Source: Thermoleptolyngbya sichuanensis A183 (GTDB lineage Bacteria; Cyanobacteriota; Cyanobacteriia; Elainellales; Elainellaceae). Taken from it: DNA of 64,000 nt. Every line of letters begins with the position of its first letter. The stretch's first letter is position 1. The notes under the pieces are model-generated. The model searched no databases and had not been told where the DNA came from. It saw nothing but the letters and a program-made list of their open reading frames with translations. Positions 2,455 through 59,654 of the stretch are shown here, piece by piece. A program made the position numbers and the translations under genes. The DNA lies in assembly GCF_013177315.1 (NCBI RefSeq), contig NZ_CP053661.1, positions 4,154,001 through 4,218,000 on the forward strand, given 5' to 3'.

Positions 2455-2545
2455 AGGACTTACGCACTTGCGATTAAATCTTCTGGGTTTTGGACAATTT
2501 CTTGCGATCTGTGCCCGCGAGAAATCGTCCAACTGCGTAAGTCCT
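2455..2545 (-). mobile_element. MITE-like element family A, copy 1 (inverted, degenerate)
   Basis: A 91-bp element is bounded by AGGACTTACGCA and TGCGTAAGTCCT. In reverse orientation it aligns along its length with the copies at 12187, 33934, 53347 and 55658. Its central hairpin is partly decayed compared with the others. Confidence 0.85.
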
Positions 2546-12000: not shown

Positions 12001-12186
12001 AGCCAACCGCGCTTTCCCATATGGAGAGTCTGCTTGCAGTAGACTCAGTATAGCTATCTTTGCCAGTTCTGCCAGTTTAGTAGCGCACCAGCCCTGCGTT
12101 GCAGTTGCCCCCTGTTCACTGCTTGACCACTCCAGCCTTTATGGATTAAGGCTTTGAGGCAACTGTAAACAGCCTATTACACCTTT

Positions 12187-12276
12187 AGGACTTACGCAGT
12201 TGGACGATTTCTCGCGGGCGCAGCCCGCGAGAAATCGTCCAAAACCCAGAAAGTACATCACAAGTGCGTAAGTCCT
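12187..12276 (+). mobile_element. MITE-like element family A, copy 2 (best-preserved)
   Basis: A 90-bp element begins AGGACTTACGCAGTTG and ends CAAGTGCGTAAGTCCT (terminal inverted repeats with one mismatch). Inside, a 20-bp perfect stem (12200-12219 with 12223-12242) has a 3-base loop. It has no coding capacity. Confidence 0.9.
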
Positions 12277-12717
12277 GACCTTGCTACACGGCTACACGTT
12301 GTAGCTTGGAGAAACTGACCTGTTCGGCGGATGGGGGAGCGATAGAAGAGAAACAGGGGGCGATCGCCTCCGAAACTTCCTCCAACCTTCAGCCAACTGC
12401 CAAGTTACACCCAGCGTAACCCCTGTATCGGCTGTCATGCCAGCGGCAGCCCTTTCAGGCACTTTTTCGGGCAGCCCTTTCAGGCGATTTGGGCTTCTTT
12501 TTCTTGATCGCTTGGAAAACGCGAGGACTAGCAGGAGCCGACTCGCAGGGTCAGGGTCTATGTATTTCTATGTATTAATATGTACTAAATCAATACGTAT
12601 TAAGGAGTGCGATAGGCGGTTAACCTATGAATCAGATGAGCTAATTTCACAAAACTTCATTCTTGCGGCTAGGTGGCTTATACTACCGAAGGATACTTAT
12701 CGAGGAGTGAATGTATC
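12277..12717. other. Upstream region of crtR
   Basis: The spacer contains HIP1 sites, a direct repeat GCAGCCCTTTCAGGC (about 12447 and 12472), and an A+T-rich stretch 12559-12603 with the palindrome AATACGTATT (12592-12601), the likeliest promoter area. An ORF overlapping it (12437-12742) has no homology-like features. Confidence 0.4.
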
Positions 12718-26740: not shown

Positions 26741-26810
26741 GCTCTTATTCAGCTTATGTCTTAGTTAGGCAATCATCATTACCCCTGCGATTTTTACTTG
26801 AGATCTCTTA

Positions 26811-26948
26811 GAGCTAATTTATGAAGCAAATCTTAAGAAGCCTGAAACTCTTGGCATGTGTGGCTTTGAGGTCATGTTTGCCTAGGAAAAGCGGTTTCTC
26901 GGAAATCCTTGATTAACAAGGCTTTCAGGCTCCTTTACAAATTAGCTC
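26811..26948 (+). mobile_element. MITE-like element family B, copy 1
   Basis: A 138-bp element starts GAGCTAATTT and ends AAATTAGCTC, with TTA on both outer sides. It differs from the copy at 52213-52350 at one position only (CCTAGG here, CCCAGG there). Internal inverted arms AGCCTGAAA and TTTCAGGCT add to the fold. It lies about 200 bp upstream of the CCB-like gene. Confidence 0.92.
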
Positions 26949-27154
26949 TTACACATTCCGCCTGGTTGCGAGAATGCTTGCAGAGTGGCTGCACAGACGG
27001 CTACTCTGCATTTTGCATTTGTTTTGACTCCTGCCACGTCAACCCGACTGCGAGCTGTGGCCAGATCACCCATCGAGGCACAATCTTTCGTACATTAAAG
27101 GGGGTGGATCTAATCCCCACAGCAATGTCCCTAGAGAGAACCTGGCTAAGGTGT

Positions 27155-33933: not shown

Positions 33934-34023
33934 AGAACGGGCGCAGTTGGACGATTTCTTGTGGGCGCAGTCCGCGAGAAATCGTCCAAAATCCAGAAAA
34001 CTGATCGCAAGTGCGTCAGTCCT
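33934..34023 (+). mobile_element. MITE-like element family A, copy 3 (left end degenerate)
   Basis: A 90-bp copy whose left terminus has decayed (AGAACGGGCGCA in place of AGGACTTACGCA), while the right end TGCGTCAGTCCT and the central hairpin remain. Two stem pairs are G-T wobbles. It ends 59 bp before the GNAT gene start. Confidence 0.8.
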
Positions 34024-51928: not shown

Positions 51929-52212
51929 GGAAGTCAGGATTTAGAGGAATAGATGAATCAGGGTTGCAGCATTGTCGGGCAGACCGGGAAAGATCGTGCG
52001 GAATGCCCCAACTAAAACCTATTCATTATCCTGCATTCGGGCCGCTATTGACGATGGTTTTGAAATGCCCTCATGCCCAGTCTTGCGCGGGAGGGATAAG
52101 GGCAGTACGGGTTCTAAACCTCGCCTAAGTTGAAACTTGTCGCTTTTATTCTTCAGGGTCTAGGTGATTTTTCATCTAGAGATGGTCAGCCAGTGCCGCG
52201 GGATTGGCATTA
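51929..52212. other. aspS upstream region
   Basis: About 280 bp with no gene seen. It borders the family B element. Confidence 0.4.
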
Positions 52213-52350
52213 GAGCTAATTTATGAAGCAAATCTTAAGAAGCCTGAAACTCTTGGCATGTGTGGCTTTGAGGTCATGTTTGCCCAGGAAAAGCGGTTTC
52301 TCGGAAATCCTTGATTAACAAGGCTTTCAGGCTCCTTTACAAATTAGCTC
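52213..52350 (+). mobile_element. MITE-like element family B, copy 2
   Basis: This copy matches 26811-26948 at 137 of 138 positions and is also flanked by TTA on both sides. The near identity indicates recent movement or gene conversion. It is in the spacer between aspS and the hydrolase gene. Confidence 0.92.
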
Positions 52351-52515
52351 TTAATTTGTTTCTGAAATTGCTCAACTCGTTGAAGGGTTGAGGGGATAAA
52401 CAAGCAGGCACAGTAGAGCGATCTCCAGAGCGATCGCCCAACCAATGCACAATGGCGGTGAGGCAGTGTCTTCCAGCGCAAACGTATGCTATTGCAAATG
52501 TATGTTAGCGCGAAC

Positions 52516-53346: not shown

Positions 53347-53436
53347 AGGACTTACGCAGTTGGATGATTTCTCGCGGGCGGTGCCCGCGAGAAATCATCC
53401 AAACCCCAGAAAACTCATTGCAAGTGCGTAAGTCCT
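53347..53436 (+). mobile_element. MITE-like element family A, copy 4
   Basis: A 90-bp copy with complete termini. Its central stem differs from copy 2 by a C-to-T in one arm and the matching G-to-A in the other (GGATGATT with AATCATCC), so pairing is kept. Direct repeats of TTATTTTGAACT follow (53440-53470). Confidence 0.9.
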
Positions 53437-55657: not shown

Positions 55658-55742
55658 AGGACTTACGCAGTTGAACGATTTCTCGCGGGCTGCGCCCGCG
55701 AGAAATCGTTCAAAGCCCAAAAAGCTTATCGCAAGTGCGTAA
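55658..55742 (+). mobile_element. MITE-like element family A, copy 5, cut at its right end
   Basis: The left end and central hairpin are intact; the stem carries a compensated G-to-A/C-to-T pair (TTGAACGATT with AATCGTTCAA). The right end stops at TGCGTAA, where AGTCCT should follow, and IS630 sequence begins. The break is at a TA, the target of IS630 insertion. Confidence 0.85.
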
Positions 55743-56147: not shown

Positions 56148-57664
56148 CTTTAGTTTGGACTAACTGGCATCACAATAATGCTCAACAGGATGCCATAAAG
56201 AATCTGCTCAACCGTTCATAACAGTTGAACTTAAGGAATTGGATACAATCCTGCTCGCAGTTAAGCTGCTGTTGCAACCGGACTGTTCAGGGATTGTTCG
56301 GATGTCTTGCGTTTCGAGGCTCGTTTTTTGACCATCGGATAGCAGGGACGAGGAGTTGGCTTGTGCCCCTTGCCTCGTCCTGGCGATTTACCACGAGGTT
56401 TAGGCGCAGGAGCAGGGGTGCCAATCGCTGCCAAAATGCCTGCAAACGCTTGTGCGACCCGACCCGGAGTCAACGTTTCTTGCGGTGCCTGCCAGGGCAA
56501 GGGGTGGTCAGTACAGTCCTTTCGCGCTAACCACAACTGCCAACTGAGCAACGGCATCAGGCTGCTCCACTGTTCGGTTGCCGATACAGAACTGAACTGG
56601 GGATGTGTCCAATATAGCCTCTGCTTGGCAAAGCGATACCAGTGTTCAATGGCAAAGCGACGGAGGTAGTGCAACCACAGGGTTTCTAACGGAGGCATCT
56701 GCTCACCCAGCCAAACTAACCACAAAGGAGCCAAGCGTCGCGTGCTGCTCTGTGTCTCCAGCACCTCCACGCGCAACACTTCCATTGCCCGTTTGGGGGA
56801 TTTGCGGAAATGGTATGCACTCCAACGACTGACCCGCACTCGTCCCCAGTTGGGATCATCGACTTCAACGGTTTCGACCGGGACACTCCAAGTGTCAGGG
56901 TCATTGAGTTTCATCTTATGTCCATGCTTGGCAGGTGCGCCTCGCCCTCGATACGCTGGGGGCGCGCCATAGACACATCGATTGGATGTAACCCGCAGCA
57001 GCAAGTCTGCCTCAATCCCTGCCGTTTGGTTGACAAAACTGGCATTGCCGTACCCTCGGTCGTAGATCGCCAACGGACGCACCGCTAACTGCCGAGTCAC
57101 TTGTTTGAGTTGGAATGCCGCTTTACTGGCGGGTGTTTCAAAGCTGGTGATGCGCTCATGCCGCAATGGTAATGCCCAACTGCCCCTGTCTTCAGCAATC
57201 CAGGCTAAGGTACTGTAGTTTTGTCCGGCTATCGGGGCATGTCCTGTTCTGCCTGATAAGGTGCGGTCTTTCAAACGCCTGGCAGCAGGACGGTTCCACC
57301 GACTCGCATCACCTGCCAACAACGGTTGCTGCTGAGTCGGTATCTGCTGCACCAACAGCTTCAGCACCTTTGATCGGGGTAGGCGGCTATCGCGCAACGC
57401 TTCATAGGTGCTCGACCACTGGCGACGAAAGACAGGACTCTGCGATAGCCTCACAAACGACACGATGCACGCACTCACTAACACGGCATCCATCAGATCA
57501 AACAGGGCATCTCTGGCGTTTCCCAAGCTGGCATACAACGTTTGGCGAAATTGCTGAAGTTCGTTGAAAATCATGGGGTCAATGTTGGTTGTACTTCATT
57601 GACCTTACGGCAGTCGGTGCTTCTCATTGACTGCCTTCCTCTTCACCATTAGTCCAAACTAAAG
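56148..57664 (-). mobile_element. Insertion sequence with IS4-superfamily (IS701-like) transposase
   Basis: The 16-bp terminal repeat CTTTAGTTTGGACTAA (56148-56163) is exactly inverted at 57649-57664. The element is 1517 bp and holds one intact transposase gene. No target duplication is visible (GACC on the left, TAGG on the right), consistent with loss of flanking sequence after insertion. Confidence 0.85.
56261..57574 (-). CDS. IS4-superfamily transposase (IS701-like)
   Basis: A 437-residue DDE transposase without frameshifts. The likely catalytic residues are D89 (L-A-G-D-A-S-R-W), D172 (A-I-Y-D-R-G-Y-G) and E310 (F-A-I-E-H-W-Y-R-F, the Y-x-x-x-K/R-type box of the IS4 group). The C-terminus is Pro/Lys/Arg-rich (about 395-430). 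All parts are present so the element may be active. The group assignment (IS701-like) is from memory of related cyanobacterial transposases. Confidence 0.85.
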   Translation of the reverse strand: MIFNELQQFRQTLYASLGNARDALFDLMDAVLVSACIVSFVRLSQSPVFRRQWSSTYEALRDSRLPRSKVLKLLVQQIPTQQQPLLAGDASRWNRPAARRLKDRTLSGRTGHAPIAGQNYSTLAWIAEDRGSWALPLRHERITSFETPASKAAFQLKQVTRQLAVRPLAIYDRGYGNASFVNQTAGIEADLLLRVTSNRCVYGAPPAYRGRGAPAKHGHKMKLNDPDTWSVPVETVEVDDPNWGRVRVSRWSAYHFRKSPKRAMEVLRVEVLETQSSTRRLAPLWLVWLGEQMPPLETLWLHYLRRFAIEHWYRFAKQRLYWTHPQFSSVSATEQWSSLMPLLSWQLWLARKDCTDHPLPWQAPQETLTPGRVAQAFAGILAAIGTPAPAPKPRGKSPGRGKGHKPTPRPCYPMVKKRASKRKTSEQSLNSPVATAA

Positions 57665-57851: not shown

Positions 57852-59654
57852 CTAAATCGCAGTGGCGATCGCATTTCTCGGTCGATAATCCGATCCCTGC
57901 TTGTTTGCACAGAATCCCAAATCAACCGACTGTCCCGGCTGCAACCGCTGTCCCCAACTGGGTGGCACAACGGTATACCGCGAACCCTGGCGGCTAAAGG
58001 TGCCGTTCCAACTCTGGTTGATCGTTGCCTGATTCATGTCAAACGTCAGTCGCCAGTTGTTCACTGCGCTGCGTCCCTGGTTTGCCACCCGAATGGCAGT
58101 ACAGAAACCAGTTTGCCAGTCTGACTGCATCGTCAAGCTAGTGCTGAGTCCAGATGAGGGACTGGGACTTGGCGACGGACTTGGCGACGGACTGGGTGAC
58201 GGACTGGGACTCGGTGACGGACTGGGACTCGGCGACGGACTGGGACTCGGCGACGGACTGGGTGACGGACTGGGACTCGGCGACGGACTGGGTGACGGAC
58301 TCGGCTTCGGAGTCGGGCTGGGGCTGGGACTAGGCGACGGACTCGTCCCCGGCGCAACCCCCGGCACAGGCAGCAATTGGTTCAAGAGTTGCTGCTTGTC
58401 TGCATGAATCGTCTGCCAGTTGTCTTGCAAGATGCCGCCTGTGTCGCCGCTATTTGGGTTCCAACTCCAATAGGCGAAATGAAGCTGATTTTGCCCAATG
58501 AAATTGACAAACTGGCGCTGCCAGATCCCTTCTTTGGAACGAGTATCGACCTGTCTGCCGCCGAATTCGCCCACAAAAATCGGCGCGATACCTTCGCGGG
58601 CAATATAGTTGAACCCGATCTCCCAGCGCTCATACAGATTTTGGGGAAAGCTGGGTTCATTGAACCAGCTCTGGTTGTAAACCCCTGCCCCGTACTCATG
58701 GGGAGAATACACCAACTTATTGGGACGGGTCAGGCGCACAGGAAAGTTTCGCACGCCCTCCAGGTTGCCGCCCCACCAGTGAACTGCAAGCCGCTGACCT
58801 GGCACGTTGTTCTCCACGCCTTCGACCACAATCAGCCAGTTGGGGTTCACGTTCAAGATGCTGTTTCCGGCTCGCTCAGCGGCCAATCGCCAGTCAGTTG
58901 CCAGGTCACCTGTACCCCAGCTTGCTCGACCGTGTGGTTCGTTCTTGAGGTCGGCTCCGATGACGTTCGCTTGGTTTCGATAACGGTTGGCCAGCATTGT
59001 CCAGGTGCTAATCCAGTCCTGCTCTGTAAAGCCATCGCCATACCACAGTTCAGGAATGCGCTGGTCGTTTAGGCGGTGGCAATCCAATACGATCATCAGG
59101 CCCTGGCGCTGGGCTTCTTGAATCACCAGATCCATAACTTCAAGGGGCGTTTTGCCCTGCAATTCGCGGTTGCTGCCGATAGAAAAATCCACACCGCTGA
59201 TGGTTTGCGATCGCAGCGATTGAATCGAGAATGGCAGGCGAATCACGTTGTAGCCCAGGCTGCGAATCTGCGCCAGCATTTGCTTATAGTCGCGGGCCCA
59301 AAGTCCATGCGGCGCGTGTGTTTCTGTCTCGATGCCAAACCAGTTCACCCCGCGCAGCAGGAGCGTTTTGCCCGAAGCGTCGAGAATCTGTGAGCCACGG
59401 GTCGAGAGCGGAGTTTGCACGACTGTAGAGGCGATCGCCACGGGTGAACCCGACAACCCCGACGGCAACAGGCGGAGCGTGAAGCCAACGGTGAGCAACA
59501 GTGACAAACCAAACAGCAGGAAGCCTTTCAGGCCTTTGCCGAGTCTCCATTGCCGTTTGGTCAAAAAACCGTCTGCGTCTTGATGTCCCCTCTGGCGTCG
59601 TCCTCCCCGATCGATAAACCCACCTCGAAAGATCTGCGTGAGTTTTCTGCTCAT
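57852..59654 (-). CDS. Secreted GH5 endoglucanase with Pro-Ser linker and CBM2 cellulose-binding module
   Basis: A 600-residue protein started at ATG 59654, with GGAGG 10 bp upstream. A basic N-terminus (1-43) and one hydrophobic stretch (44-63) give export or anchoring. The GH5 domain covers about 80-428, with acid/base E239 (L-K-N-E-P-H-G) and nucleophile E363 (V-G-E-F-G-G); H320 in S-P-H-E-Y is also typical. A (Pro-Ser)n linker (~438-500) joins a CBM2-type module (~505-600) with conserved Trp and a Cys pair (G-F-C and L-G-F-C). It should cleave beta-1,4-glucan outside the cell. Monocistronic with its own terminator. Confidence 0.92.
58158..58340 (-). repeat. Repeat DNA encoding the Pro-Ser linker
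   Basis: Units such as GGACTGGGACTCGGCGAC repeat with 12- and 18-bp periods. They are coding repeats and not a CRISPR array. Confidence 0.85.

Follow-up and report, generated by a model that had tools for sequence, protein, structure and literature searches.

A mobile palindromic element of Thermoleptolyngbya sichuanensis A183 whose matched hairpin arms and inverting loops point to template switching

The palindromic element of about 90 bp described here is a MITE, that is, a non-autonomous transposon, and the covariation in its hairpin stem is real. In our judgement it was probably moved by an IS of the IS701_2 type that has the same ends, and the paired changes in its arms come mainly from the DNA level, via template switching (probability about 0.7 for this reading as a whole). 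Covariation is commonly held to be the best proof of a functional RNA. Strong covariation in selfish DNA, with no sign of selection on an RNA and with repeatedly inverted loops, looks like a clean counter-example.

Structure, copy number and mobility of the element

The window, the whole stretch of 64,000 nucleotides that was analysed, comprises bases 4,154,001-4,218,000 of the single-contig genome (5,525,100 bp) of T. sichuanensis A183, a hot-spring cyanobacterium. The element is built of 12-bp ends (AGGACTTACGCA), a 20-bp hairpin stem, a 3-base loop and a spacer of about 22 nt, the latter being its least conserved part (13% departures from the consensus in 106 copies). The five copies reported in an earlier note on this DNA were all found where it had placed them (Table 1), and the paired arm changes of copies 2, 4 and 5 are present as it had written them. 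Copy 3 was said to keep its pairing through G-T wobbles, and all three of its stem departures are indeed G·T. The claim of shared ends holds for most copies, the exceptions being copy 3, in which the left end is degraded (AGAACGGGCGCA) and the right end carries one mismatch, and copy 5, in which the last bases of the right end are missing. The arms are matched in copies 2, 4 and 5, while the stem of copy 1 has two non-wobble mismatches, C·A and G·A, which had gone unmentioned. The DNA fold of copy 2 gave z = -11.96, and no ORF of 100 aa or more overlapped any of the five window copies.

Table 1. Positions of the five copies in the window and of the parts of copy 2
Feature	Position	Strand	Remarks
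Copy 1	2455..2545	-	91 bp; TCTAT duplication on both sides; nhmmer E 4e-25
Copy 2	12187..12276	+	90 bp; 92 bp including the Y and R outside the ends; stem perfect
Copy 2, left target duplication ACCTT	12181..12185	.	right one at 12278-12282
Copy 2, left terminal inverted repeat	12187..12198	+	AGGACTTACGCA
Copy 2, inner hairpin, 5' arm	12200..12219	+	
Copy 2, loop	12220..12222	+	3 bases, GCA
Copy 2, inner hairpin, 3' arm	12223..12242	+	
Copy 2, asymmetric spacer	12243..12264	+	
Copy 2, right terminal inverted repeat	12265..12276	+	TGCGTAAGTCCT
Copy 3	33934..34023	+	left end degraded; duplication TGAAC/TGAAA (4/5)
Copy 4	53347..53436	+	compensated stem GGATGATT/AATCATCC; duplication AACTG/AACTA (4/5)
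Copy 5	55658..55742	+	right end truncated; compensated stem GAACGATT/AATCGTTC

With up to 2 mismatches the 12-mer end was matched 9 times in the window, against 3.43 expected, and 0 of 100 shuffles reached 9. Genome-wide, the 11-mer end occurred 255 times (132 forward, 123 reverse) and its reversed control 5 times (3 and 2). At least 150 copies are present in A183 (3467 candidates noted, 150 scored): all 150 scored candidates matched a covariance model built mostly on A183 copies, each with E <= 3.1e-20. The search for further copies proposed in the earlier note, which would have given up its reading had there been none, yielded well over a hundred. The working sample covered 984,663 bp of the genome, chosen around the listed matches and hence not random, and held 120 distinct copies, 107 of them full length; after leaving out the 13 that were not full length and one more by length, 106 were aligned. 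A stricter subset, restricted to full-length copies with at most 7 stem mismatches, kept 100 of the 120 A183 copies and 87 of the 96 copies from J069, a MAG of the same genus (RFIF01 contigs). A derivative of about 45 bp, in which both ends are kept and most of the hairpin and spacer are gone, was seen at genome position 253556 (locus L051, 1500-1544).

In the 107 full-length copies the flanking positions -6..-2 and +2..+6 agreed in 78-83% of the cases per position, where 26-33% is expected from composition, and none of the other registers tested stood out. The target duplication is therefore 5 bp long. The base preceding the left end was mostly a pyrimidine (T 92, C 10) and the one following the right end mostly a purine (G 78, A 26). 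Exact 5-bp duplications flanked 59 of 100 A183 copies and 69 of the 87 usable J069 copies, many of which are identical to one another. One J069 insertion corresponds to an empty site in A183, where the two flanks adjoin with an overlap of 5 bp. These duplications, the empty site in a relative and the IS with the same ends in relatives (see below) confirm the MITE reading, which the earlier note had offered as the minimum one; the element has terminal inverted repeats and many copies of about 90 bp that contain no transposase gene, and its ends are shared with an autonomous element in relatives, not in A183 itself. Both flanks could be placed in the A183 sample for 7 of the 96 J069 copies, and none of these insertions was shared. 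The copies at L204 and 1279803 lie close by, yet belong to different subfamilies. A looser genome scan returned 106 stretches, and O-77 (ANI 89.97%, PMC8461337), the strain best suited for finding orthologous copies, was not represented among them; a scan with 56 bases gave no matches.

A probable partner IS in related genomes

The partner was located by a pattern of the ends from which the MITE interior was excluded. It identified, in a genome of the same family (G018), an IS of 1140 bp bounded by the same 12-bp ends as the MITE. The transposase of this IS (347 aa) carries DDE domains (Pfam) and scored 415.5 bits with NF049921 (IS701_2), where the cut-off is 250, as against 91.4 bits with the classic NF033540, below the cut-off of 150. 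Matches to it occurred in 12 of 36 genomes, among which it was absent from A183 and from J069 (G001, 85% complete). The exact 12-bp ends flanked a transposase match on both sides at eight distinct loci in seven genomes, namely G018 (twice), G006, G017, G011, G002, G020 and G010. In the seven of these loci that had both flanks, an exact 5-bp duplication was found in four (L152, L154, L155, L156) and not in the other three (L153, L158, L164), while the eighth, L167, ends at a contig edge. Loci with worse ends matched in 5 of 5 (L161), 3 of 5 (L157), 2 of 5 (L159) and 1 of 5 (L172) positions of the duplication. The IS measured 1053-1140 bp.

According to the accessible part of PMC2266710, members of the published IS701 family make 4-bp duplications and are 1400-1550 bp long. 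The partner resembles this family in that its transposase exceeds the NF049921 cut-off; it differs in its 5-bp duplication and in its length. In view of these two differences we refer to the partner as IS701_2-type.

The earlier note had supposed a mobilising transposase elsewhere in the genome. Such a source was found in the relatives, as the IS with the same ends, and not in A183, where nothing scored above the NF049921 or NF033540 cut-offs. In the 984,663-bp sample of A183, no transposase element lay between end pairs at distances of 0.4-4 kb, and a search of plasmid records found nothing. We infer that a transposase of the IS701_2 type moved the MITE: the same-ended IS would have acted in trans, and A183 would since have lost it.

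Another candidate, an IS with a 444-aa frame, was rejected as partner, its ends being different (CTTTAGTTTGGACTAA, 8 copies compared). This frame makes up 77 of the 91 weak NF033540 matches in A183, and one copy of the IS, 1.5 kb long and weakly IS701/IS4-like, lies in the window at about 56261-57574 on the minus strand.

Matched arms and inverted loops

In the 20 stem pairs of the 106 aligned A183 copies, 1857 cells were consensus, 83 compensated, 70 G·U, 66 A·C and 40 other; in the 12 pairs of the end repeats of the same copies the corresponding numbers were 1153, 3, 44, 29 and 39. Cells changed on both sides numbered 51, against 10.5 in shuffles, and fell on 10 of the 20 stem pairs (39 copies from five genomes). 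The stem was perfect in 40 of the 106 A183 copies, with 14 different arm sequences.

The earlier note would have counted uncompensated arm substitutions against its reading, and these are in part what was found, as 176 of the 259 stem departures in the 106 A183 copies are uncompensated; we ascribe them to the decay of resident copies. The mismatch per pair was about equal in the stem (176/2116, 8.3%) and in the end repeats (112/1268, 8.8%). Thus resident copies give no general indication that correction is still going on, and the matching of the arms would have arisen mainly in active lineages. Mismatches were found in 60 of 1377 cells (4.4%) in the outer 13 stem pairs and in 116 of 739 (15.7%) in the 7 pairs on the loop side, an excess that may reflect a higher mutation rate at CGCG or where the hairpin tip is exposed. 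Compensated stem alleles were weakly linked to the adjacent spacer in A183 (r = 0.20, p = 0.001), which indicates that many of them are inherited markers and not fresh events.

The covariation could in principle come from an element that encodes a folded RNA, selection on which keeps the pairing. By the usual counts the covariation is strong, and the RNA fold is very stable (z = -11.14). A C-to-T change in a single arm keeps a G·U pair in the RNA, while a G-to-A change gives A·C, so that selection on the RNA of one strand should favour one of these departure classes. The ratio of G·U to A·C was 70:66 in the 106 A183 copies, 60:60 in the 100-copy subset, 17:29 in J069 with the outermost pair left out (p = 0.10) and 7:11 over G004, G022 and G018, a comparison that loses power if different copies are transcribed from different strands. 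Moreover, the window contains no Rfam match at gathering thresholds, and the loop bases invert freely. With no wobble excess on either strand, the selection on a folded RNA considered in the earlier note is unsupported, and we regard it as highly improbable.

The loops of the A183 copies (n=106) were GCA in 51, TGC in 38, ACA in 5 and TGT in 3, the others occurring singly; in J069 (n=87) they were TGC in 48, GCA in 27, TAC in 4 and TGT in 3, again with the others singly. GCA and TGC are reverse complements and differ at all three bases. Five groups of J069 copies agree in all 87 bases outside the loop and have a stem perfect apart from a T·G outer pair, and every one of them contained both orientations. 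The loop is here inverted amid otherwise identical sequence, as in a template-switch hairpin. The J069 groups with a further stem mismatch had a single orientation (TGC in 6/6 and in 2/2), which is suggestive only. At least three loop sequences occurred in both orientations in J069 (GCA/TGC, TGT/ACA, TAC/GTA). The outermost stem pair of J069 was T·G in 84 and T·A in 3 of the 87 copies, and since the flipped C·A never occurred, the inverted tract lies inside the stem.

From these observations we infer a mainly DNA-level origin of the paired changes in the arms. When the palindrome of an active copy is replicated, the new strand would switch template onto the opposite arm, and one arm would be copied onto the other; a switch between strands would flip the loop. 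Matched stems would then spread as the copies multiply. Resident copies later decay in either arm regardless of pairing, as the equality of the G·U and A·C classes shows. Of the two origins of covariation weighed in the earlier note, selection on the fold and arm-templated correction, the second is favoured because loop inversion recurs. Arm homogenisation and spacer inversion are given as the two products, and the signature, of template switching in the available portion of PMC8604942, and in that of PMC8794818 template switching is proposed as the origin of changes in RNA hairpins. As far as these texts go, their cases resemble ours in that compensatory changes and loop inversion follow from one DNA-level event; they concern rRNA genes and yeast coding DNA, whereas here the hairpin belongs to a mobile repeat and was inverted many times over.

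Ectopic gene conversion could also flip the loop, if hairpins were swapped between copies as units and the palindrome aligned either way. In line with such exchange, the orientation of the loop was not associated with the spacer in A183 (r = -0.02 and -0.014), a result that also counts for template switching, and the two spacer parts were mutually unlinked (r = -0.03). Nor was loop orientation associated with stem alleles (r = -0.012). However, the recombination would have to take place on 13-35 bp of flanking element, stem alleles show partial linkage to the spacer, and the presence of at least three J069 loop sequences in both orientations means that new inversions are needed anyway. We therefore hold gene conversion to be a decidedly unlikely source of the pattern. 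The flat relation between the outside difference and the compensated stem difference was dropped as a proof of hairpin exchange, because the two spacer parts are also unlinked.

Distribution in other genomes and related repeats

Of 194 genomes of the class, 33 contained the two ends at a spacing of 48-78 bases, A183 being one of them; no genome contained the reversed control. Outside A183, 62 of the 68 elements among those listed measured 83-91 bp between GG and CC ends, when 70-100 bp was allowed. At one locus from each of 30 genomes a long inner hairpin was present in 14, a shorter one in 2 and none in 14, so the size of the element is more constant than its hairpin. Elements with the same ends and about 89 bp (L336-L365) have quite different interiors across the class, several with a loopless palindrome like GTAGGGGCAATTCATGAATTGCCCCTAC.

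Elements that share the ends and layout but have stems other than those of A183 were found in G004 (30 elements, 23 perfect stems, 20 of them different; loops GAA 10, TTC 8) and in G022 (30 elements, 25 perfect stems, 17 different; loops T 13, A 7, ATC 1, GAT 1). All stems were perfect in the 10 elements of G025 (7 different; loops GCA 5, TGC 4, TAC 1), which include one trio identical except for the loop (GCA 2, TGC 1), and in the 7 elements of Kaiparowitsia (G016). In G004, G022 and G025 the loop thus again comes in both orientations. As loci without an end pair or without a hairpin were dropped, these counts favour hairpins. Perfect stems that differ between copies are what arm homogenisation predicts, a picture which the hairpin-based selection of loci itself favours.

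It could also be argued that the DNA hairpin is required, either for the transposition reaction or by a host factor, and that only matched stems are copied on. The recurrence of the same layout with quite different stems in G004, G022 and G025, and the long inner hairpin at 14 of the 30 loci, are in line with this. Yet the other 14 loci have no long hairpin while their ends and size are unchanged, a C·A-mismatched stem is present in 6 identical J069 copies and so has spread, and the inversion of the loop is left unexplained. As the main cause such selection seems rather unlikely to us, although hairpin selection during movement may act together with template switching, the two being compatible.

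A wider reading of the template switching model, to which we give somewhat less than an even chance, is that in the widespread cyanobacterial elements of about 90 bp the hairpins evolve mainly in this way, with inversion outpacing all point mutation and perhaps coupled to transposition. If so, these elements would display the covariation of a textbook RNA while having no function as RNA, and template-switch events would be naturally recorded in every copy. The element provides a natural, many times replicated system in which arm homogenisation and loop inversion can be measured.

KLAP109, a MAG labelled as Myxococcota, has two contigs (L190 and L230) in which the end is followed by a TTGGATGATTT start. 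These contigs contained no HIP1 site and matched neither the A183 sample nor the J069 loci over more than 200 bp, and their elements represent either a transfer or mis-binning.

The element resembles known cyanobacterial MITEs (those of Anabaena sp. 90, and Nezha) in being short, gene-free and present in many copies with terminal repeats, as far as the partial descriptions go. In the available part of PMC3542288 the MITEs of Anabaena sp. 90 have lengths of 77-541 bp, 132 of 147 lie between genes, and they were classed as type II, with no IS to match them; in the case of the A183 element the type of the partner is identified in relatives, and the arms and loop carry template-switch signatures. 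REP and REPIN sequences are likewise short, extragenic, palindromic and of high copy number, REPs being palindromes of 20-40 bp in the portion of PMC3733652 at hand; the A183 element differs by its terminal repeats and 5-bp duplication. At the level of listings and abstracts, literature searches on IS701 and MITEs in cyanobacteria, on Nezha, on MITEs with Microcystis and IS701 and on the end sequences gave no description of the element.

Two further repeats were noted in the window. One, at 26808-26951 and 52210-52353, is a young 144-bp repeat bounded by the inverted ends TTAGAGCTAATTT/AAATTAGCTCTTA; its copies are 97.9-100% identical, the 0.98-Mb sample gave 17 matches, among them the two window copies, and it is probably another MITE family. 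An array of short GACGGACTGGGACTCGG-like repeats occupies 58138-58371.
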